Shown here: positions 28,936 to 39,545 of the stretch, in pieces
How the letters are laid out: every line of letters begins with the position of its first letter
Position numbering within the stretch: position 1 is the first letter of the stretch
Assembly (NCBI RefSeq): GCF_034479555.1
Contig: NZ_CP140151.1
Location: 3,100,001 to 3,164,000 of the forward strand
Length of the DNA stretch: 64,000 nt
Source of the DNA: Chromohalobacter canadensis
GTDB taxonomy: Bacteria > Pseudomonadota > Gammaproteobacteria > Pseudomonadales > Halomonadaceae
Direction of reading: 5' to 3'
The notes under the pieces: model-generated
What the model was told of the DNA's origin: nothing
What the model saw: the letters and a program-made list of their open reading frames with translations, nothing else
Databases searched by the model: none
Made by a program: the position numbers and the translations under genes

Positions 28936-30030
28936 TCACGGCCCGCTGTCGCTGAGCCGCGTGTACTCGCGTTGCCAACGCTCGAGCAGCGAGTGGCGCT
29001 TGAGGGTGTCGAGTGTGGCCAGCAGGCTGGGGTCGATGGCAATCGGGTGAATGGCATCCCCGAGGGTCTGGCGTAAGTCACGGGCGGTGCCTTCGCCTTC
29101 GAGTGCGGTGTGTACCGCCCCGAGAGGCGTCTTGTCGCGTATCGCCTGCTGGCCTTGACGACTGAGAAGGTACGCGACGAAGCGCTTGGCGGCCTCCGGA
29201 TGCGGCGCATGCTTGGGGATCAGCACCAGACGCTGCGTCACCAGGGCATAATCGCTGGGAATGACCATTTCCAGTTGCGGGTGATCGGCCACGAAGTCGC
29301 GTGCGTAGGAACCCAACAAGTTATAGCCGACGGCGTAGCGTCCGTCGGCCAGGCCATCGAGCATTTCGCCGGTGGTATCGGCCAGTGCTGCTTCCACGCC
29401 GCCCAAGGCGGCCACCAGTTCCCAGTAGCGCGGTGACATGTGCGCGTCTTCGGTGGCATAGGTATAGCCGGCGCCGCTGCGCCAGGGGTCATACGTCACT
29501 ACGCGGCCTTTGAGACGCTGGCGTTCGTTGGTGAGCAAGCTCAACAAGGCTTCGTGGCTATCCGGTCGCGTGACGCCCTCGAGGGCGTCGCGTCGATAGA
29601 CGATGACTACGGGTTCGAAGGTAAAGCCGAACAATTCGTGGCGCCAGCGGGACGCCTGAGGCCACGCGCGAGCCTCGGCGGTGTCGAGTGACTGAGCCTG
29701 GCCGCGGTTGGCGAGCTGATATTGCCACGGCATCGCCGACGACATGACGACATCGGCCGAGGTGGCGTCCGCGGACATGAAGCGGCGGTACAGTGCCAGT
29801 GTGGTCAGGTTGTGATAGACCAGTTCGATCTCGGGGTGACGCGCCTGGAAATCAGCCAGCAGTGGGGCCATCAAGTCACTGTCCAACGCGCCATGAATTT
29901 CCAGGGGCTGCGCGGGATCCTGAGTGGCAGGGTAACGCAGCACCTGCGGGTCGGCGAGGCTGGCCATCGAGGCCGTGACCCCGGCCCACGCGATCACGGC
30001 CAAGCCGCATAGACGACGCAAGGTGGTCAT
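28936..30030 (-). CDS. Periplasmic solute-binding protein in a two-component operon (PgtC-like)
   Basis: The 364-residue precursor has a signal peptide (MTTLRRLCGLAVIAWAGV, cleavage before DPQVL) and the fold of type II solute-binding proteins: IHGALDSDLMAPLLADFQARHPEIELVYHNL, then SADATSADVVMSSAMPWQYQLANRG, and TYDPWRSGAGYTYATED in the hinge region. It resembles the Fe3+/phosphoglycerate-type group (AfuA, PgtC). There are no permease genes next to it, and it starts inside the stop codon of a histidine kinase gene (ATGA). A sensory role, presenting ligand to the kinase, is therefore more likely than transport. Confidence 0.8.
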   Translation of the reverse strand: MTTLRRLCGLAVIAWAGVTASMASLADPQVLRYPATQDPAQPLEIHGALDSDLMAPLLADFQARHPEIELVYHNLTTLALYRRFMSADATSADVVMSSAMPWQYQLANRGQAQSLDTAEARAWPQASRWRHELFGFTFEPVVIVYRRDALEGVTRPDSHEALLSLLTNERQRLKGRVVTYDPWRSGAGYTYATEDAHMSPRYWELVAALGGVEAALADTTGEMLDGLADGRYAVGYNLLGSYARDFVADHPQLEMVIPSDYALVTQRLVLIPKHAPHPEAAKRFVAYLLSRQGQQAIRDKTPLGAVHTALEGEGTARDLRQTLGDAIHPIAIDPSLLATLDTLKRHSLLERWQREYTRLSDSGP

Positions 30031-31409
30031 GATGTGGCCTCCTCGGTGAAATGCAGGCGCACGCATAAACCCGGTGGCTCGGCATTCGGGCGTGCCGGCA
30101 CCAGGCTGAGCCGTGCTCCATGCGTGCGGGCGATGCCGTCGACGATGGCTAACCCCAGCCCCGAGCCTTGCCCGCCTTCGATACCGCGATGGAATGGACG
30201 GAGTACCAGTAGGCGCTGGCTTTCGGGGATGCCGGGGCCGTCATCTTCGACTTCGAGGCGCGTGGGGGCCTCGCCGACGCGCACCGTGATGCGGGACGCG
30301 CCGTAACGCCTGGCGTTATCGATCAAGTTGGCCAGGGCTTCGGCGAGCTGCCATTCCACTGCATGCTGCATCACCGGATGCGACGGCACTTCCGCGCCCA
30401 GGTCGATGCCGTCACGGTGGCAGTTCGTCCAGGCGTCGCGTACCGCTTGGCGGGCGGTATCGCAGAGGTCGATGGCGACCGCTTCGGGCGTCGCTTCGGG
30501 GTTGTTGAGGCGTGTCAGCGAGAGTAACTGCGACGCCAGACGCGCGGTCTTGTCGGCGCTGCCGCGCATGACCTCCAGGGCGTCGCGCCAGGCGTGTGGA
30601 TCGTCCTGACGCAGGGCCAGCTCGGCACGTGCCGAAAGCCCGGCCAGCGGTGTGCGCAACTGATGAGAGGCGTCGCCGATGAAGCGCTCCTGGTTGGCGC
30701 GCACACGGCGCATGCGCGCCAGCAGGTCGTTGAGGGTTTCGCGCAGCTCGGCCAGTTCACGGGGCATTGCCAGGTCCAGTGGCGCCAGGGTGCGTGGGTC
30801 ACGGGCGCGGATCGCGCGGCGTAAGCGGGTCAGGGGCATCAGTGCCATGCGAATCCCCAGCAGCAGCACACCGATGGCCAGCATGGCCATGGCGACCAGG
30901 CGCAGCATGCTGCCCTGGAACAGCGACTGGGTTAATGCCTCGCGCCCCTCGCGGGTATGCGCGACGCGCACCTCGAATGGCTGACGGTCGCGCCAGCCCT
31001 CGAGCTGAGAGTGGCGAACGCCCAGGCGCAGGCCCATGTCATGCCACTGAATATCGGCGAAGCGCATGTTGCCGGGGGTGTCGTCGAGTGCCGGCAGCTC
31101 GGCATTGCCGCTGATGAAATTACCGTTGGCATCGTAGAGCGCATAAAAGACGCGCTCCTCGACTTGGGATGCCAGCATCTTCAAGGCCGCGGGCGGCAAG
31201 TCCATCCACAGTTGCCCTTGTTGGCGTTTGACTTGCTCGGCGATGGAGAGCGAAGCCGCTTCGAGCAGGCGGTCGAACGCGCGATCGGCGGTATCGCGAG
31301 ACGCCATGTAGGCCTGGGCCAGGACCAGGCTGCCGAGCAGCAACATGGGCACCATCAGCCAGACCAGCAAGCGGCGGTAGAGACTCGGCAAGGTGGCCGG
31401 TTCACTCAC
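30027..31409 (-). CDS. tctE: Sensor histidine kinase, TctE-like
   Basis: The 460-residue kinase has TM1 (about residues 14-34), a periplasmic sensor region (35-165) and TM2 (170-190). A HAMP-type linker follows, then the phosphoacceptor H249 in GDASHQLRTPL, the N box NLIDNARRYG, and the G boxes VEDDGPGIP and GSGLGLAIVDG. A GTG at 31409 overlaps the response regulator stop by 8 bases and is the likely start, as the upstream extension is the regulator's shadow. Homology to TctE and the divergent tctCBA operon suggest it senses a tricarboxylate or related acid. Confidence 0.9.
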   Translation of the reverse strand: MSEPATLPSLYRRLLVWLMVPMLLLGSLVLAQAYMASRDTADRAFDRLLEAASLSIAEQVKRQQGQLWMDLPPAALKMLASQVEERVFYALYDANGNFISGNAELPALDDTPGNMRFADIQWHDMGLRLGVRHSQLEGWRDRQPFEVRVAHTREGREALTQSLFQGSMLRLVAMAMLAIGVLLLGIRMALMPLTRLRRAIRARDPRTLAPLDLAMPRELAELRETLNDLLARMRRVRANQERFIGDASHQLRTPLAGLSARAELALRQDDPHAWRDALEVMRGSADKTARLASQLLSLTRLNNPEATPEAVAIDLCDTARQAVRDAWTNCHRDGIDLGAEVPSHPVMQHAVEWQLAEALANLIDNARRYGASRITVRVGEAPTRLEVEDDGPGIPESQRLLVLRPFHRGIEGGQGSGLGLAIVDGIARTHGARLSLVPARPNAEPPGLCVRLHFTEEATS

Positions 31410-32109
31410 TCTCGCCCTCCAACGTCTCGCTCTCCAACACGTATCCCAGACCGCGCACGGTGCGCAGCGTGAGCGGTGACTCCGCCAGGCGCCGTCGTAG
31501 CCGGTGTATGTAGACCTCGATGGCATTGTCACCCAGCGTTTCCCCGCTGAAGACGTGCGTGAGCAGGTGGCCCTTTTCCACTGGCTCTCCCGCGTGACGC
31601 ATCAGGTAGGCCAAGAGACGCTGCTCTCGGGGTGGCAAGTCGAGAGGGGTGCCACTGAGCGTGAAGCGTTGCGCCAGGCCATCGAAGTGCAGCGGACCGA
31701 CGTGTAACTGAGGGCTGTCGTCGTGTTGGCGTCGGCGCAGCAGGGCGCGGACACGGGCTTCCAGTTCGTCCAGGGCGAAAGGCTTGGCCAGATAGTCATC
31801 GGCGCCGAGGTCGAGCCCCGTGACGCGGTCTTCGATGGCGCCCCGCGCGGTGAGGATCAGCACCGGCGTATCGCGGTCATGGCGGCGCATGGCGTCGAGA
31901 ATTTCCAGGCCACCCCGTCCCGGGAGATTGAGGTCGAGCAAGACGAGTGCATAGCCGTGTCCCGGGGTGGCCAGTCGCGCATGGGCACTGTCGCCTTCCT
32001 CGAGCGTCTCGATGCGGTAGCCGGCCAGGGCCAGCGCGTCGTGCAGCGTACCGGCGAGCAGGGCGTCGTCCTCGACGAGCAGCAAGGTAGGTGTGATGTC
32101 GGGCGTCAT
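31402..32109 (-). CDS. tctD: OmpR/TctD-type response regulator
   Basis: The 235-residue regulator has a receiver domain with acidic pocket EDD (13-15), phosphoacceptor D59 in LLDLNLPG, and K109 in YLAKP. A winged-helix DNA-binding domain follows, ending in IEVYIHRLRRRLAESPLTLRTVRGLGYVL. It is phosphorylated by the kinase encoded just downstream and very probably controls tctCBA, transcribed divergently 780 bases away. Its ATG overlaps the IclR gene stop by 4 bases (ATGA). Confidence 0.92.
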   Translation of the reverse strand: MTPDITPTLLLVEDDALLAGTLHDALALAGYRIETLEEGDSAHARLATPGHGYALVLLDLNLPGRGGLEILDAMRRHDRDTPVLILTARGAIEDRVTGLDLGADDYLAKPFALDELEARVRALLRRRQHDDSPQLHVGPLHFDGLAQRFTLSGTPLDLPPREQRLLAYLMRHAGEPVEKGHLLTHVFSGETLGDNAIEVYIHRLRRRLAESPLTLRTVRGLGYVLESETLEGESE

Positions 32110-32895: not shown

Positions 32896-33885
32896 ATGGC
32901 TTTAAAGACGCCACTCAAACTCGTCATGGCCGCTGCGCTGACACTGGGCGCCAGTTCCGCCATGGCTTTCGAGCCGGAAGGTAAGGTCGAGTGCATCGCA
33001 CCCTCCGATCCCGGCGGCGGCTGGGACTTCACATGCCGTAGCGTGGGTAATGTGATGGAAGAGCTCGACCTGGTGCCGGGTAGCGTGCAGACCCTCAACA
33101 TGGCTGGCGCTGGCGGCGGTGTCGCTTACGCGCACACGGTCAGCAAGCGTGCCGGCGACGACCAGTTGCTGGTTGCGGCGTCCACGGCGACCACTACACG
33201 GTTGGCGCAAGGGCAGTTTCAGGGCCTGGATGCCGACATGGTTAATTGGGTCGGTGCGCTGGGTGCCGACTACGGCGTCATCGCTGTCTCCAAGGATTCG
33301 CCCTACCAGAACCTCAACGAGCTGATGGATGCCCTCCAGGAAGACCCGCGCTCGGTGAAGTTCGCCGGTGGTAGCGCCAAGGGTGGCTGGGATCACCTCA
33401 AGGTGTTGATCGCGGCGCAGGCGGCGGATGTCGATAATCTGCCCCGGATTCCGTATCTGTCCTACAACAATGGTGGCGAGGCCATGACCCAGGTGGTCGG
33501 CGGTCATGTCGATGCCTTCACGGGCGACATCACCGAAGCCCAGGGCTTCATGGAATCCGGTGATTTGCGCGTGTTGGCCGTGCTCTCCGACGAACGCCTG
33601 CCCGGTGAATTCAGTGATATTCCCACTGCCAAGGAGCAGGGCATCGACGCCGTGGGGCCCAACTGGCGCGGGTTCTACATGCCGGCGGATGTTTCCGACG
33701 AGGCCAAGCAGTACTGGATCGATGCCGTCGATGAGCTCTACGCCAGCGACGAATGGAAGAAGGTCATGAAGAGCAATGGCCTAATGCCGTTCCACGTCAG
33801 CGGTGCCGAGTTCGAGGAATTCGTCCATCAGCAGATTAAGGACATCCAGTCGCTCTCCAAGGAAATCGGGCTGATCAAGCAATGA
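32896..33885 (+). CDS. tctC: Tripartite tricarboxylate transporter binding protein TctC
   Basis: The 329-residue precursor has a signal peptide ending in SSAMA and the TctC/Bug fold. Its ligand loops are APSDPGGGWDFTCRSV and AGGSAKGGWDHLKV, with the family sequence YLSYNNGGEAMTQVVGGHVDAF between. It delivers a carboxylate (citrate or a similar acid in known cases) to TctAB. It is the first gene of tctCBA, and the stop overlaps the tctB start (ATGA). Confidence 0.93.
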   Translation: MALKTPLKLVMAAALTLGASSAMAFEPEGKVECIAPSDPGGGWDFTCRSVGNVMEELDLVPGSVQTLNMAGAGGGVAYAHTVSKRAGDDQLLVAASTATTTRLAQGQFQGLDADMVNWVGALGADYGVIAVSKDSPYQNLNELMDALQEDPRSVKFAGGSAKGGWDHLKVLIAAQAADVDNLPRIPYLSYNNGGEAMTQVVGGHVDAFTGDITEAQGFMESGDLRVLAVLSDERLPGEFSDIPTAKEQGIDAVGPNWRGFYMPADVSDEAKQYWIDAVDELYASDEWKKVMKSNGLMPFHVSGAEFEEFVHQQIKDIQSLSKEIGLIKQ

Positions 33886-34337
33886 CCCAACGCAACGACC
33901 GTATTTGCGGTGTGCTGCTGCTCGTCCTGGCCGTCGCGTACGGCTGGGGCGCCACGCAGTTTCCGGAACCGTTCGGTGGGGCCGAGTCGGTCGGCCCCGA
34001 TACCTTTCCCAAGGTGCTCGCGGTAGTGCTGGCACTGTCCAGTCTCTATCTGATCGTCAAGCCGGATCCGGACAACGCCTGGCCCACGGGCCGTATCGTG
34101 CTGGAACTGGTCATCGCCGTGGCCGTGCTGGTCGCCTATACATTGCTGCTCCAGCCGCTCGGCTTCATTCTCGCGACGCTGCTGGCGGTGGGCACGTTGT
34201 GCTGGCGCATGGGCGCTCCCCCTATGCGTGCCTATGTTACCGGCGCGATCGCCGGCGTGGTGGTCTATCTGTTGTTCACCTATGCCCTCAATCTGGCCTT
34301 GCCATTGGGTGTGCTTAGCGTCCTGGAGGGAAGCTGA
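33882..34337 (+). CDS. tctB: Tripartite tricarboxylate transporter small membrane subunit TctB
   Basis: The 151-residue protein has four predicted membrane helices, with FPEPFGGAESVGPDTFPKVLAV after the first, as is typical of TctB. It is poorly conserved in sequence across the family, so the call rests on its size, topology and position between tctC and tctA, with overlaps at both ends (ATGA and TGATG). Confidence 0.9.
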   Translation: MTQRNDRICGVLLLVLAVAYGWGATQFPEPFGGAESVGPDTFPKVLAVVLALSSLYLIVKPDPDNAWPTGRIVLELVIAVAVLVAYTLLLQPLGFILATLLAVGTLCWRMGAPPMRAYVTGAIAGVVVYLLFTYALNLALPLGVLSVLEGS

Positions 34338-35851
34338 TGGAAACCCTGGGCTATCTGATCGACGGGTTCGGCGTCGCCTTGGCGCCGCACAACCTGATGT
34401 TCGCCTTGATCGGGGCCTTCCTGGGGACCCTGATCGGGGCCTTGCCGGGGCTGGGGCCCGCCAACGGCGTCGCCATCTTGATTCCGCTGGCCTTCACGCT
34501 GGGCCTGCCGCCGGAAACCGCGCTGATCATGCTGACGTCGGTCTATGCCGGTGCCATGTACGGGGGGCGTATCTCTTCGATACTGCTCAACATCCCCGGC
34601 GACGAACCGGCCATGATGACCTGTCTTGACGGCTATCCGATGGCCCAGAAGGGCAAGGCCGCCGAGGCATTGGCGATCTCGGCGATCGCTTCTTTCATGG
34701 GCAGTCTCATCGCCACGATCGGGCTCATCCTGCTGGCGCCACTGTTGGCCAAGTTCGCGTTGACCTTCGGCCCGGCCGAGTATTTCGCGCTATTCGTGCT
34801 GGCCTTCGCCACCCTGGGTGGCATCACCGGCAAGAACCCGATCAAGACGGTGTTGGCCGCGGCCCTGGGCTTGATGATCGCCACGGTAGGCATCGATTCG
34901 ACCGGCACGCAGCGCTACACCTTCGGCGTACTGGAACTCTATGAAGGGATTGACTTCATCATCGCCATCGTCGGCCTGTTCGCGATTTCCGAGCTGCTTT
35001 TCTTCATCGAGAGTCGCGCCGGTGATGGCAAGGGGCCGATGAAGGTCAACAAGCTCACGCTGTCCTTCAAGGAAGTTCGCGAGATCATGCCGTCCAGTAT
35101 CCGTGGCGGTGTCCTCGGCTTCATCGCGGGTGTCCTGCCGGGCGCGGGCGCCTCGCTGGGCAGCTTCATCGGTTATACCCTCGAAAAGAAGGTAGTGGGC
35201 AAGAAAGGCTACTTTGGTGAAGGTGACCCGCGTGGTGTTGCCGGCCCCGAGGCCGGTAACAACGGGGCCTCGAGTGGTGCGCTGGTGCCCATGCTGACGC
35301 TTGGTGTGCCGGGCAGCGGCACGACCGCTGTGCTGCTGGCGCTGTTGATCTCGATGAACATCACCCCCGGGCCGCTGATGTTCACCCAGAACGCCGATAT
35401 CGTCTGGGGTGTGATCGCGGCGCTGTTGATCGGCAACTTCCTGTTGCTGCTGCTCAACATCCCGCTGGTGGGGATCTTCGTCAGGTTGCTCTCGGTACCG
35501 CCCAAGTACCTGCTGCCGATCGTCACTATGGTGGCCTTCGTGGGCATCTACTCGATCAGCAACTCCGCGTTCGATCTGTACTTCATGGTGGCTTTCGGCG
35601 TGTTCGGCTACTTCCTGCGCAAGCTGGAAATTCCCATGGTGCCGATCATACTCGGGTTGTTGCTGGGCCCGGAGATGGAGAAGAACCTGCGACATGCCTT
35701 GGACATCGCCGATGGCGACTGGACCGTGCTATGGAGCAGTGGCCTGGCAATCGGCCTGTGGGTCGTGGCCTTCGTCGGCCTGGTGTTGCCGTATATCGTC
35801 GGCCCGATTCTGCGTCGGCGGATGAATGCTGCGCGGCAAAGCGCCGAGTAA
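34337..35851 (+). CDS. tctA: Tripartite tricarboxylate transporter large membrane subunit TctA
   Basis: The 504-residue permease has about twelve helices and the two TctA signatures GALPGLGPANGVAILIPL and GVLPGAGASLGSFIGYTLEKK, plus PEAGNNGASSGALVPMLTLGVPGSGTTAVLL. It carries out secondary, ion-driven uptake of the acid bound by TctC. It is complete and of normal length. Confidence 0.95.
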   Translation: METLGYLIDGFGVALAPHNLMFALIGAFLGTLIGALPGLGPANGVAILIPLAFTLGLPPETALIMLTSVYAGAMYGGRISSILLNIPGDEPAMMTCLDGYPMAQKGKAAEALAISAIASFMGSLIATIGLILLAPLLAKFALTFGPAEYFALFVLAFATLGGITGKNPIKTVLAAALGLMIATVGIDSTGTQRYTFGVLELYEGIDFIIAIVGLFAISELLFFIESRAGDGKGPMKVNKLTLSFKEVREIMPSSIRGGVLGFIAGVLPGAGASLGSFIGYTLEKKVVGKKGYFGEGDPRGVAGPEAGNNGASSGALVPMLTLGVPGSGTTAVLLALLISMNITPGPLMFTQNADIVWGVIAALLIGNFLLLLLNIPLVGIFVRLLSVPPKYLLPIVTMVAFVGIYSISNSAFDLYFMVAFGVFGYFLRKLEIPMVPIILGLLLGPEMEKNLRHALDIADGDWTVLWSSGLAIGLWVVAFVGLVLPYIVGPILRRRMNAARQSAE

Positions 35852-35936: not shown

Positions 35937-37958
35937 TCAAGACGGCGATGAAAGGGCTTGCAGTTCCGCGGCGGGGACGCGATCGCCTCCCCAACTGCGG
36001 TGCACATAGCCGATCACACGATCGAGCTCGGCCTGGGGGATAGTAGCCAGTTCGCCGTGTTCCAGTGGATCGTAATGGAAGATGTAAAGCCGCGAGGCGA
36101 ACTGTTCGAAAGGCAGCGAGGCTTCGCCGAAGCGTTCGCCGCAACCGGCGGTGCTGACTTTGACGTCGTCGCCCCAGTCTTGGCCGCTGTCGTTGTTAGG
36201 GTTGAAGAAGTAGGCGCGCATTACGTCCTGAGGGTCCAGGTTGACGCGTAGCAGGGTGATGGCGTGCCAGCCGATAAAGCGTGCCGCGCTGTCGGTCACC
36301 GCGATGCCGGCGGGCTGCGGATGGATCAACGGTTGATTGCCGTTGTAATACGGATGGTAGCTGGCATAGAAGTGACGCAGAAAAACGTCGAGTTCATGGA
36401 GTTGGCCGGTTTCCACGTCGACGTTGATGTGAAAGCCGCGGCCGGCCCACCAGCCATGGAATTCCGGATTGACCCAGCGATGGGGGTCTCCCTCGCGGCC
36501 GATGCAGCGCCGGCCCATCTCGGCATAGATACGGTCGAGATGCGGGACCACGATCAGTGATAGCGGGTCCAGATCCAGCGGCAGGGCCGTGGCCACGCCG
36601 GACAGGCTGGCCATCGACGACAGCGGCATACCTTCGAAATGCATGATGATCTCGTCGTCGCGGGCTGCCCAGGCGACCATCTGCAGCAGATAGTCGGGGT
36701 CGTTATAGGCCCACATCGACAGCGCACGCGCCGATTGGCAGGTCGGGTTGTTGCCCTGGCCGACGCCCAGCGGCAGGCCGAGCATGCACAGTACCCCCTC
36801 CAGCAGGCGGGCGCGTGGTGGCACGGCATCGCCATAGGCCATGCGAATGCGCTCCTGCGACCAGGCCGAGATCGGCAGGCCGATCTGGCGCCATAGGGCG
36901 GGCGCGACCGGTTGCTGATAGAGAATGCCGCGCTCGAGCATTAGCGCTAGCCCGTACACCGCCTGGGGCGTTGCGGGAAAGACACTTTCCTCGATGAGCG
37001 CCTGGACCAATTGGCGGTAGCAGAGTAGGCAGTCGCGTCCGGTGGCCGACAGTCCCAACGCCTCGGCCAGCAGATGATCGCCCTGGTCGAGTAGATGGCG
37101 CAGCAACACGGCATGGTAGGCCGAGACCAGCCCGGTATCGTGCATGGCGCGAGCGAAGCCGGTGGCTTCGTATTGGAGTGCGCCGCTGTCCATCGCCTGC
37201 AAGCGCTCGAGATAGACCTCGACACCGGGGTCCTCACGAGATGCCTGGGTCGCCCCGAACAGGCTGCTGACCAGACGGTCGGCGCCTTGGCCGCTGGCGC
37301 CCAAGTCGATGTCGGGATCGGCCTGACAGATTGCGATCTGAGTGATCATGCGTTTGATCGCATCGACCTGAATGGGGCGCTGTTGAAGGATGCGCCAGAT
37401 CTCGTCGATCAGCTGGTCGATCACATGTTCGTAGCCGATAGTCTCGGCCAGATGCACGAACAGGCTGCGAGTCAGCTGTGCCAGGCGGCCCTGGGTCTCG
37501 CGTTCGGCCTCGCTGGGTGCGCTGAACAGGAGATCGAGATTGATCGCCAGTACCTGGGTGAGATAGTGGTGCGCCTGCTCGGCGGAGATCAACGTATGCG
37601 CGTAGCGCCCCATGGCCACTGCCAGTAAGCGCAATTCGCTGAGCGCCTCGAGCACCACGGTGTCGCTCTCGGGGCTCTTAAGCGAATGCACGGTCAGCGA
37701 CGGCACCAGGATCTGCGGCTGGGCCCAGTCGGAGCCGTCGAAGATGCCGGCGGCTTCGATCGATTGGGTCCGCCTCTCGATAGCGGCGCAGCCGCCGGGT
37801 TGCAGCATCACCTTGCGGGCGCCGTCAAAGACCCGACGCAGTTTGCCGGGCTTGGCGAAATCGCGCGCATTGGCGAGGATCTCGACCGCTTCGTCGAGTT
37901 TCGCCAGCGCGGCGTCCAGCTTGGCGTTATCCGGTGTTTGTTCGTCGTGGCTCGTCAC
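35937..37958 (-). CDS. Uncharacterised 673-residue protein with a papain-like catalytic signature
   Basis: I do not recognise this as a named family. The first 380 residues are largely helical with no clear motif. From residue 396 the sequence LGVGQGNNPTCQSARALS places Q401 six residues before C407, the spacing of the oxyanion Gln and nucleophile Cys in papain. GWHAITLLRV supplies H565, and FFNPNNDSGQDWG supplies N586 in the position and context of the papain Asn (N..G.WG). A cysteine peptidase or transglutaminase-like acyltransfer activity is therefore inferred. No signal peptide is seen. It follows the ATP-grasp gene by 33 bases in one transcription unit. Confidence 0.6.
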   Translation of the reverse strand: MTSHDEQTPDNAKLDAALAKLDEAVEILANARDFAKPGKLRRVFDGARKVMLQPGGCAAIERRTQSIEAAGIFDGSDWAQPQILVPSLTVHSLKSPESDTVVLEALSELRLLAVAMGRYAHTLISAEQAHHYLTQVLAINLDLLFSAPSEAERETQGRLAQLTRSLFVHLAETIGYEHVIDQLIDEIWRILQQRPIQVDAIKRMITQIAICQADPDIDLGASGQGADRLVSSLFGATQASREDPGVEVYLERLQAMDSGALQYEATGFARAMHDTGLVSAYHAVLLRHLLDQGDHLLAEALGLSATGRDCLLCYRQLVQALIEESVFPATPQAVYGLALMLERGILYQQPVAPALWRQIGLPISAWSQERIRMAYGDAVPPRARLLEGVLCMLGLPLGVGQGNNPTCQSARALSMWAYNDPDYLLQMVAWAARDDEIIMHFEGMPLSSMASLSGVATALPLDLDPLSLIVVPHLDRIYAEMGRRCIGREGDPHRWVNPEFHGWWAGRGFHINVDVETGQLHELDVFLRHFYASYHPYYNGNQPLIHPQPAGIAVTDSAARFIGWHAITLLRVNLDPQDVMRAYFFNPNNDSGQDWGDDVKVSTAGCGERFGEASLPFEQFASRLYIFHYDPLEHGELATIPQAELDRVIGYVHRSWGGDRVPAAELQALSSPS

Positions 37959-37991
37959 AAGGGCTCCTTTTGCCCAGGAGTACAGGCGCGA

Positions 37992-39215
37992 TTATACATA
38001 GAAGTCGAGATCTTCCTGGTGCTTGAGCAGATCGCGCATGGTGTGCGGATCGTCGCCAAAGAAGTACAAAAGCCCCCAGTGCGTGCCGAAGGCCGTCCGC
38101 TTGGTGACGGTTTCCTCGAGCGGCGAGGTCAATTCATGAGACTCGAAGTAGGGGTGGTCCTCGGTTTCCTCGGGCATCTCCAGGCGGCTTACCACACGGC
38201 GGCGCGGATAGACGCCGAAACAGCCGGCGACGCCCTTGGCATCGACCACTTCACGGGGGAAGAAGTCGGTGATCTCCTGCTCGGTGGTCTTGGGGTCGAA
38301 GGACAGGATCAGGCCCTGATAGGCATTGAAGCCGTAGGCCCGCTCGAGCAACTCGAAGACCTTGAAGCCGGGCGGGCGGTAGGCAACCTCGCCGAAGTAC
38401 ATTTCGCCGTCGCTGGTGACGAAGTATTCCGGATGCACGAAGCCGAAATCGATGTCGAAGGTCTTGATCAGCTTCTCGATCTGGCGGGTGATCGACTCGC
38501 GGTATCTCTCGAGTTCTGGCGTCGCCGGGACGAACACCGAATACCCCAGGGTCACGTATTCGGAGATGTTGAGAAAGCGGATCTTGCCGTTGTGGATCCA
38601 CGCCTCGACGGCGAATTCCCAGCCATCGAGGTGCGATTCCATCAGCACCGGGAATTCTTCCTCGGGGATGGTATCGACCTCGTCCGGCGTGCGGATCACG
38701 CGGTGGCCGAGGCAGCCCGCCTTGTCGAAGGCCTTGAGGTGAATCGGATCGTTGGGATCGCCGTCTAGCTTGAGCAGGGTCTGGTTGACGCGCTTGAGGA
38801 AGCGGATGACGTCTTCCTTGTCGTGGGCTTCCTCGAAGATGCCCACACGGATGCCGCCCAACTGCGCGCGCCGCTTCATCAGCGCCTTGTCGCGCAATAG
38901 CAATGCCTGGCCATAGAGGCGTGGGTTGTCGAGCAATACCGAGTTGATTGCCCCGGCCCACTCCACGGTTTCCTCGTACAGCGGAATGGCGACGTCGACG
39001 CCCATCTCTTGAAGCGTCTCGGCGATTTCCATCGAGCGGTCGTTGAGGCGCTCGAAGTTCCAGGGCACGTAGGGAATATCGTGCTCCTTGCAGTACTCCT
39101 CGGCCCAATCGGGGGCCACGACGACATAGCGTCGATCGAAGTTCTCGGCGGCTTCGACGGCATTCAGGCTCCAGCCCAGTAGCGCGATATGTCCCTTGTC
39201 GGGGGATTTTTCCAT
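37992..39215 (-). CDS. ATP-grasp domain ligase, substrate unknown
   Basis: The 407-residue protein has an N-terminal Rossmann-like pre-ATP-grasp region (HIALLGWSLNAVEAAENFDRRYVVVAP) and a central ATP-grasp fold. Lys contacts lie in LLRDKALMKRRAQLGG and LKAFDKAGCLGHRV, and a metal-binding end is at FGFVHPEYFVTSDGEMYFGEVAYRPPG. The C-terminal portion has ESHELTSPLEE. Such enzymes activate a carboxylate as an acyl phosphate and join it to an amine. The partner, a papain-like protein, follows in the same operon. The start at 39215 has AAGGAG 7 bases upstream. The ATG at 39221 is only 1 base from it. Confidence 0.8.
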   Translation of the reverse strand: MEKSPDKGHIALLGWSLNAVEAAENFDRRYVVVAPDWAEEYCKEHDIPYVPWNFERLNDRSMEIAETLQEMGVDVAIPLYEETVEWAGAINSVLLDNPRLYGQALLLRDKALMKRRAQLGGIRVGIFEEAHDKEDVIRFLKRVNQTLLKLDGDPNDPIHLKAFDKAGCLGHRVIRTPDEVDTIPEEEFPVLMESHLDGWEFAVEAWIHNGKIRFLNISEYVTLGYSVFVPATPELERYRESITRQIEKLIKTFDIDFGFVHPEYFVTSDGEMYFGEVAYRPPGFKVFELLERAYGFNAYQGLILSFDPKTTEQEITDFFPREVVDAKGVAGCFGVYPRRRVVSRLEMPEETEDHPYFESHELTSPLEETVTKRTAFGTHWGLLYFFGDDPHTMRDLLKHQEDLDFYV

Positions 39216-39221
39216 GCTCAT

Positions 39222-39432: not shown

Positions 39433-39545
39433 GGTGGCCCCGTCGGTCCTCCCGCAACGCTAAACCGCGAACCCCGCCAGGCCCGGAAGGGAGCAACGGT
39501 AGTGGTGGCTGCGTGTGCCGGGATGTGGCTGGCGGGGCCGCCTCC
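39433..39545 (+). ncRNA. ffs: 4.5S RNA of the signal recognition particle
   Basis: The ends pair (GGTGGCCCCGTC at 39433-39444 with GGCGGGGCCGCC at 39531-39542). The apical region carries the conserved Ffh-binding motif: GCCAGGCCCGGAAGGGAGCA, with the GGAA tetraloop, and TGTGCCGGGATG on the other side. The conserved TCCTCCCGCAACGCTA follows the 5' stem. It works with Ffh to target nascent membrane proteins. The position just upstream of dnaX is the arrangement seen in many gammaproteobacteria. The ends are approximate by a few bases. Confidence 0.92.

Follow-up and report, generated by a model that had tools for sequence, protein, structure and literature searches.

A co-retained ATP-grasp ligase and papain-like protein of Chromohalobacter canadensis as a probable undescribed biochemical system

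Two adjacent genes of Chromohalobacter canadensis, coding for an ATP-grasp ligase and for a partner protein predicted to combine a helical-repeat half with a papain-like half, probably make up one undescribed biochemical system, since related bacteria, where examined, have retained or lost them jointly. They form a minus-strand operon at 35937-39215 of the window, by which we mean the whole stretch of 64,000 nucleotides that was analysed (contig NZ_CP140151.1, positions 3,100,001-3,164,000) and to which all coordinates refer. The ligase gene comes first (37992-39215, 407 amino acids, ATG at 39215 and stop codon at 37994-37992) and is followed by the partner gene (35937-37958, 673 amino acids, GTG start at 37958). 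An earlier note made from the letters alone had described this pair on the minus strand, and both open reading frames were found where it had placed them.

Retention of the two genes coincided in both families that were sampled. Among 121 genomes of the operon's own family (thresholds of E ≤ 1e-30 for the ligase and E ≤ 0.001 for the partner), the ligase was detected in 73 and the partner in 74, so that 73 genomes carried both, none the ligase alone, one a partner fragment alone and 47 neither. The corresponding sample of 101 genomes from the family of Marinobacter similis (E ≤ 1e-30 for both genes) gave the ligase in 67 and the partner in 68, with both in 67, the ligase alone in none, partner fragments alone in one and neither in 33. 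Combined, these 222 genomes comprise 140 with both genes, 0 with the ligase alone, two with partner fragments only and 80 with neither. The two odd genomes are G340, which holds a 69-residue partner fragment with a stop (C78:32137-32343), and G936, which holds two partner fragments (C1:434849-435443), in each case without a ligase, so that decay seems to affect both genes jointly. When both are set aside, the ligase and partner genome sets are identical, at 73 and 67. In a class-wide sample of 229 genomes both genes were present in the same six, the C. canadensis genome included, and 14 further genomes had remote ATP-grasp proteins only (22-38% identity) and no partner. Wider sampling showed the family to be rare: of the 349 genomes in the phylum sample 9 matched the partner profile, and of the 246 in the actinobacterial sample 2 did so, one being the genome on which that sample was centred.

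The survey of neighbouring genes that the earlier note had proposed likewise upheld the association. In all of the 80 named loci, which are the best 80 of at least 581 confirmed and are close relatives, the partner lies directly 3′ of the ligase on the same strand, one of the partners (L037) being interrupted by a contig end. At two of these loci, from Marinobacter similis (L078) and Marinobacter salarius (L094), the partner is in two overlapping pieces beside an intact ligase, which may reflect a sequencing error or a real loss; the M. salarius genome (G688) has two further partner matches over almost the whole profile, one of them containing a TAG codon, and the M. similis genome (G687) has none. 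Beyond the named loci the arrangement varies. Among ligases at least 80% identical to that of the window (type A), 68 of 68 in the own-family sample and 54 of 57 in the Marinobacter similis family had a partner within 1 kb; among those of 76-79% identity (type B) the figures were 3 of 13 and 12 of 36, respectively. The three own-family type B neighbours (L137, L143 and L144) are all partner-first, those of the Marinobacter similis family comprise nine divergent and three partner-first pairs, and the ligase-first order and a convergent pair (L139) complete the four arrangements seen. Partners at 51-58% identity are often solitary, yet in the two family samples they occur only in ligase-bearing genomes.

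Nine genomes carry both genes without any ligase within 1 kb of a partner: G286, G308 and G324 in the own family, and G974, G944, G950, G999, G982 and G1007 in the Marinobacter similis family. In G308, G324 and G1007 a single contig holds the two genes at a distance of more than 1 Mb, and both sides were examined gene by gene in G286. For the other five the ligase or partner that was checked is at least 1.7 kb from the nearest contig end, and a neighbour hidden by the assembly is therefore excluded at that distance. Such co-retention of unlinked genes is stronger evidence of joint function than adjacency. The best-supported element of our proposal is that ligase and partner serve a common process, because the genes stay or vanish together even when they are no longer neighbours.

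Profile relation over the core and conserved residues together assign the ligase, on sequence grounds, to the ATP-grasp superfamily. Its match to Pfam ATP-grasp_4 (E 2.8e-5, 24.2 bits) fell under the curated cut-off of 27. The ligase profile (A4) reached the L-amino acid ligases 4wd3 (E 6.8e-31, profile positions 43-396), which we take to be RizA, and 3vot (E 1.4e-12), which is BL00235; these alignments span 350 and 309 chain residues, including the glutamate pair and the next arginine, and further matches at E ≤ 0.001 were 4dim, 3orq, 30vh and 3ax6. A single-sequence phmmer comparison of the ligase with 4wd3 and 3vot gave E values of 0.01 and 0.019 only. Residues K110, K114, K161, E193, E200, E204, H261, E263, E276 and R280 were invariant in 18 of 18 ligase rows, down to 20% identity; by analogy with ATP-grasp enzymes we presume that K110, K114 and K161 are the nucleotide lysines and that E263 and E276 form the metal-binding acidic pair. 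Membership of the NCBIfam subfamily PRK07206 was rejected (25.8 bits against a cut-off of 302). The C-terminus is unusually fixed, reading DFYV in 76 and DFYI in 4 of the 80 named loci (window 37995-38006). In type B ligases (L137, L143, L144, L208-L213 and L216) the N-terminus is extended by about 30 residues, which include a recurring DSV(K/R)GTE(T/A)PKDP segment; type A lacks this extension.

The 673-residue protein, whose family the earlier note had not recognised, gave no credible Pfam, NCBIfam, PADLOC or PDB sequence match in our searches either. The window protein showed a weak match to DUF2891 (E 0.18, under the cut-off) and none in NCBIfam or PADLOC, and the 48 partner rows of alignment A5, six of them orphan type C partners and three of type B, showed scattered weak NCBIfam and PADLOC matches only. 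Pfam families C1, C2 calpain, C39, C58, BtrH_N, DUF3335, CHAP and phytochelatin synthase were not matched up to E 1 by the window partner or by seven homologues, and these papain-like families were also absent among the 11 families matched by the 48 members. The partner represents a papain-like family without an entry in the family libraries searched. Its homologues at E ≤ 0.001 numbered 3115 among 7996 scored; relatives in Chromohalobacter are 94% identical, and the ligase loci nearest by name are also from Chromohalobacter (98-99%).

Structure prediction, another step that the earlier note had put forward, yielded an AlphaFold2 model with a mean predicted local distance difference test (pLDDT) score of 90.6, in which a helical half is followed by a papain-like half. 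The N-terminal half (residues 1-371, 36846-37958) is all helical in the model, with an ARM/HEAT/VHS-like arrangement, and the papain-like domain covers approximately residues 396-633 (36060-36773). Mean pLDDT over ten-residue blocks of 391-640 ranged from 77 to 97 and was lowest for 451-460 (77) and 401-410 (79). Residues 368-633 could be aligned to the solved structures of calpain, the nearest structural neighbour, as well as staphopain, cathepsin and bleomycin hydrolase, with identities of about 9-14% for calpain, staphopain and cathepsin. Residue order, structural likeness and conserved catalytic residues agree in assigning the partner a predicted papain-like fold of the clan CA type.

The motifs around Q401, C407, H565 and N586 singled out in the earlier note are at the sites it gave, and their conservation is far from chance. 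In an alignment (A3) of 108 selected rows with 37-100% identity to the window partner, of which 71 came from the 120 listed matches and the rest were the window and the named loci, the predicted oxyanion-hole glutamine Q401 (36758-36756), the predicted nucleophile C407 (36740-36738) and the predicted catalytic histidine H565 (36266-36264) were invariant (108/108), while the predicted third triad residue N586 (36203-36201) was asparagine in 107 rows and aspartate in one. In the model C407 is the first residue of helix 407-419, H565 lies on strand 561-574 and N586 follows directly upon strand 580-585. Q401 stands six residues ahead of C407, a spacing that we take to be shared with Q19 and C25 of papain; residue 396 pairs with residue 14 of cathepsin K and residue 13 of staphopain A, which would place C407 on residues 25 and 24 if no gap intervenes. 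C407 is the sole conserved cysteine among the eight of the window partner, the next best reaching 38% (A3), and of 59 invariant columns within residues 1-640, 49 fall in 396-640 and 10 in 1-395. Across A5, Q401, C407 and H565 were again invariant and N586 was asparagine in 47 rows and aspartate in one. Residue 564, immediately ahead of H565, is arginine in all six orphan type C partners (L138, L140, L141, L142, L145 and L146), and tryptophan in 40, phenylalanine in one and alanine in one of the other 42 rows; arginine versus tryptophan at this position is a possible specificity mark.

The two genes differ markedly in tempo. Between Chromohalobacter and Streptomyces himastatinicus the ligase is 88.6% identical, whereas the same genome pair gives 71.7% for EF-Tu, 66.9% for RecA and 66.6% for the partner. 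Four-fold sites of identical ligase residues agree at 45.9% of 172 positions against 39.4% expected from composition and so are near saturation; the high identity of the ligase therefore does not stem from recent copying alone, and purifying selection on the ligase is very strong. In both gene trees, drawn with midpoint rooting, six actinobacterial rows and one Oceanisphaera row group among gammaproteobacterial rows, with support at this fork of 99/95 in the partner tree and a weaker 87/88 in the ligase tree. Pairwise distances of ligase and partner were correlated, with r of 0.88 over 630 pairs (36 rows) and 0.69 over 496 pairs of type A, kinship not being removed from either value. On account of the matching trees and correlated distances, the two genes appear to have been transferred jointly from one phylum to another.

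The genes, predicted fold, conserved residues, co-retention and joint movement in the trees were computed, and from here on we infer chemistry. With a chance that we put at slightly less than even, the pair is an undescribed system for ligation of an amide bond and for its cleavage or transfer, acting on one product or target; the account by Iyer et al. (2009), discussed below, is the likeliest place for an earlier mention. The ligase would use ATP to convert a carboxylate into an acyl phosphate that is then joined to an amine, as its conserved ATP-grasp residues suggest; an amino acid or a short peptide would be the most likely source of the carboxylate. The fold and invariant residues of the partner, in turn, suggest that C407 would attack an amide of the same product or target, assisted by H565 and N586 and with Q401 in the oxyanion hole, to give an acyl-enzyme whose acyl group may pass to water (an eraser or trimming activity) or to another amine (transfer). 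The helical-repeat half may hold the substrate or dock the ligase. The reading of the earlier note, in which one protein forms an amide bond that the other cuts or transfers, is supported on this basis. A narrower form of this proposal, which we consider improbable as it stands, is a writer/eraser cycle in which the ligase adds an amino acid or short peptide to a conserved macromolecule, either a protein or a translation component, and the partner removes or transfers it, its helical-repeat half gripping the macromolecular target. A conserved macromolecular partner would explain how a dispensable and horizontally moved ligase could change more slowly than EF-Tu.

Some of the same observations can be accommodated by a small-molecule pathway, in which the ligase makes a short peptide or amidated metabolite out of free amino acids and the partner is the transpeptidase or acyltransferase of a finishing step, with no eraser cycle. 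In profile comparison the solved structures nearest to the ligase are those of the L-amino acid ligases 4wd3 and 3vot, and many of the named loci belong to genera that we recall as marine or saline, where small solutes matter. Papain-like transferases do exist, BtrH and phytochelatin synthase being instances in PMC10318531. Yet such a pathway would lack any constant third gene for biosynthesis or export at the 80 named loci, its partner would have a helical-repeat half of about 370 residues that probably exceeds the needs of a small substrate, and its ligase would be conserved beyond EF-Tu across phyla, which is unusual for a metabolic side branch; we regard it as unlikely, though worth keeping in view. 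The partner might also act on the ligase itself, as a thiol protease or a scaffold responsible for its regulation or maturation, or the ligase might modify the partner, instead of both working on a common substrate. Strict co-retention despite variable copy number and gene order would suit an enzyme and its regulator, as would the faster evolution of the partner (66.6% against 88.6% in the Streptomyces comparison), the likeness to calpain, a signalling protease, and the fixed ligase end, which could be a recognition site. The crowding of invariant columns in the papain-like half is, on the other hand, what is expected of an enzyme with a fixed substrate chemistry, and many partner copies are solitary, so that we judge regulation of this kind to be quite improbable.

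Sporadic presence and apparent transfer between phyla would also suit an anti-phage or conflict system, and one homologue (P0249) is named "Zorya protein ZorC EH domain-containing" in UniRef. The 48 members nevertheless gave no credible PADLOC match (three families with one member each, best E 0.015), P0249 had no Pfam match up to E 1, the chromosomal setting with dnaX, a signal recognition particle (SRP) RNA gene and a tricarboxylate transporter is ordinary, and the extreme constraint on the ligase is unlike the fast change of arms races. A defence role is accordingly very improbable, and Zorya (ZorC EH domain) was rejected since no such PADLOC or Pfam match was found in the 48 members, P0249 included. 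Hardly any weight is given to the idea that the genes are neighbours through shared ancestry alone and serve unrelated processes. Inherited synteny could by itself produce the single gene order of the named loci, but it would not account for the nine genomes in which both genes are unlinked, for the absence of a lone ligase among 222 genomes, for the two ligase-free genomes with partner fragments only, or for the partner-first, divergent and convergent pairs.

Both genes of the operon are preceded by a ribosome-binding site AAGGAG, at 39228-39223 for the ligase (spacer of 7 nt) and at 37969-37964 for the partner (spacer of 5 nt). An alternative ligase ATG, the start given by the open reading frame listing, occurs at 39221; the 407-residue start is likelier because AAGGAG stands 7 nt ahead of it. 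The ligase stop and the partner start are 33 nt apart in the window, and in relatives the median distance from the ligase stop to the first homologous position of the partner is 36 nt, the distance staying below 200 nt at 77 of the 78 loci measured. Upstream, the SRP RNA gene (39441-39537, plus strand) lies between the divergent ligase gene and dnaX. Downstream, genes for the tripartite tricarboxylate transporter TctC, TctB and TctA (32896-35851, plus strand) adjoin the operon tail to tail, contradicting the view of the earlier note that no transporter lies beside it; beyond them, at 28936-32106, are a two-component regulator pair and a solute-binding protein. TctA was matched in 14 of the 80 named loci, some of which are shortened by contig ends, and all 14 are titled Chromohalobacter, Halomonas, Modicisalibacter or Halomonadaceae; the transporter is therefore local synteny and stands outside the two-gene module. 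No third gene was constant within up to 8 kb on each side of the 80 loci, the commonest other neighbour cluster occurring in 24. In Halomonas sp. PA16-9 the pair (NZ_CP040452.1, 1212713-1215972) belongs to a record of 1.83 Mb that is labelled a plasmid and whose size suggests part of a chromosome or a megareplicon; no gene is listed under the pair match, and the gene table of that record is incomplete. The pair is of wider interest in that the ligase changes as slowly as core machinery, yet about one third of the genomes from the two sampled families (80/222) lack both genes. It suggests that Halomonadaceae, Marinobacter relatives and some actinomycetes possess an unknown modification or metabolite, and harmless, culturable hosts (Chromohalobacter, Halomonas and Marinobacter) make the question directly testable.

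Likeness to known proteins can be traced for each component. Residues 368-633 of the partner share the predicted fold, the Cys-His-Asn order and the oxyanion glutamine of calpain, staphopain and cathepsin, but identity is low, the partner has no Pfam peptidase match and its N-terminal half is different. The L-amino acid ligases 4wd3 and 3vot resemble the window ligase at profile level, yet are distant in sequence, and we know of no partner gene for them. As for whole systems, Iyer et al. (2009, Mol Biosyst 5:1636) reportedly described amidoligase systems that include DUF3335-type papain-like proteins with ATP-grasp or GNAT ligases, and the present genes resemble these as a predicted pair of peptide ligase and papain-like protein. 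A citing statement in PMC10318531 concerns DUF3335 with GNAT domains, and related operons appear in PMC2922099. PMC10318531 classifies papain-like families, and within the text examined "ATP-grasp" occurs once, in a reference title. The difference from these systems is that no DUF3335 match was found in the 48 partner members.

Two further systems offer a closer comparison. In glutathionylspermidine synthetase/amidase (GspSA), an ATP-grasp-type ligase forms an amide, which a fused papain-like CHAP amidase hydrolyses, while in butirosin biosynthesis the ATP-grasp ligase BtrJ is accompanied by the papain-like acyltransferase BtrH. The first shares with our pair the combination of an ATP-grasp-type ligase and a papain-like Cys/His enzyme, but is a single polypeptide, whereas here there are two genes, a ligase of another subfamily, on the ATP-grasp_4/L-amino acid ligase side, and a large helical-repeat half; with two separate genes and no Pfam match to GSP synthase or CHAP, membership was rejected. 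The second has its ligase and papain-like enzyme as separate proteins of one pathway, as might be the case here, but our pair has no constant carrier protein or antibiotic cluster and no BtrH_N match, and its partner also occurs away from the ligase; membership was rejected, since the 80 loci held no constant carrier-pathway gene. PMC10318531 names the E. coli CHAP protein 2IO7 and gives BtrH_N as a papain-like acyltransferase. GspSA and BtrJ/BtrH are the closest kinds of system to the pair described here, which belongs to neither.

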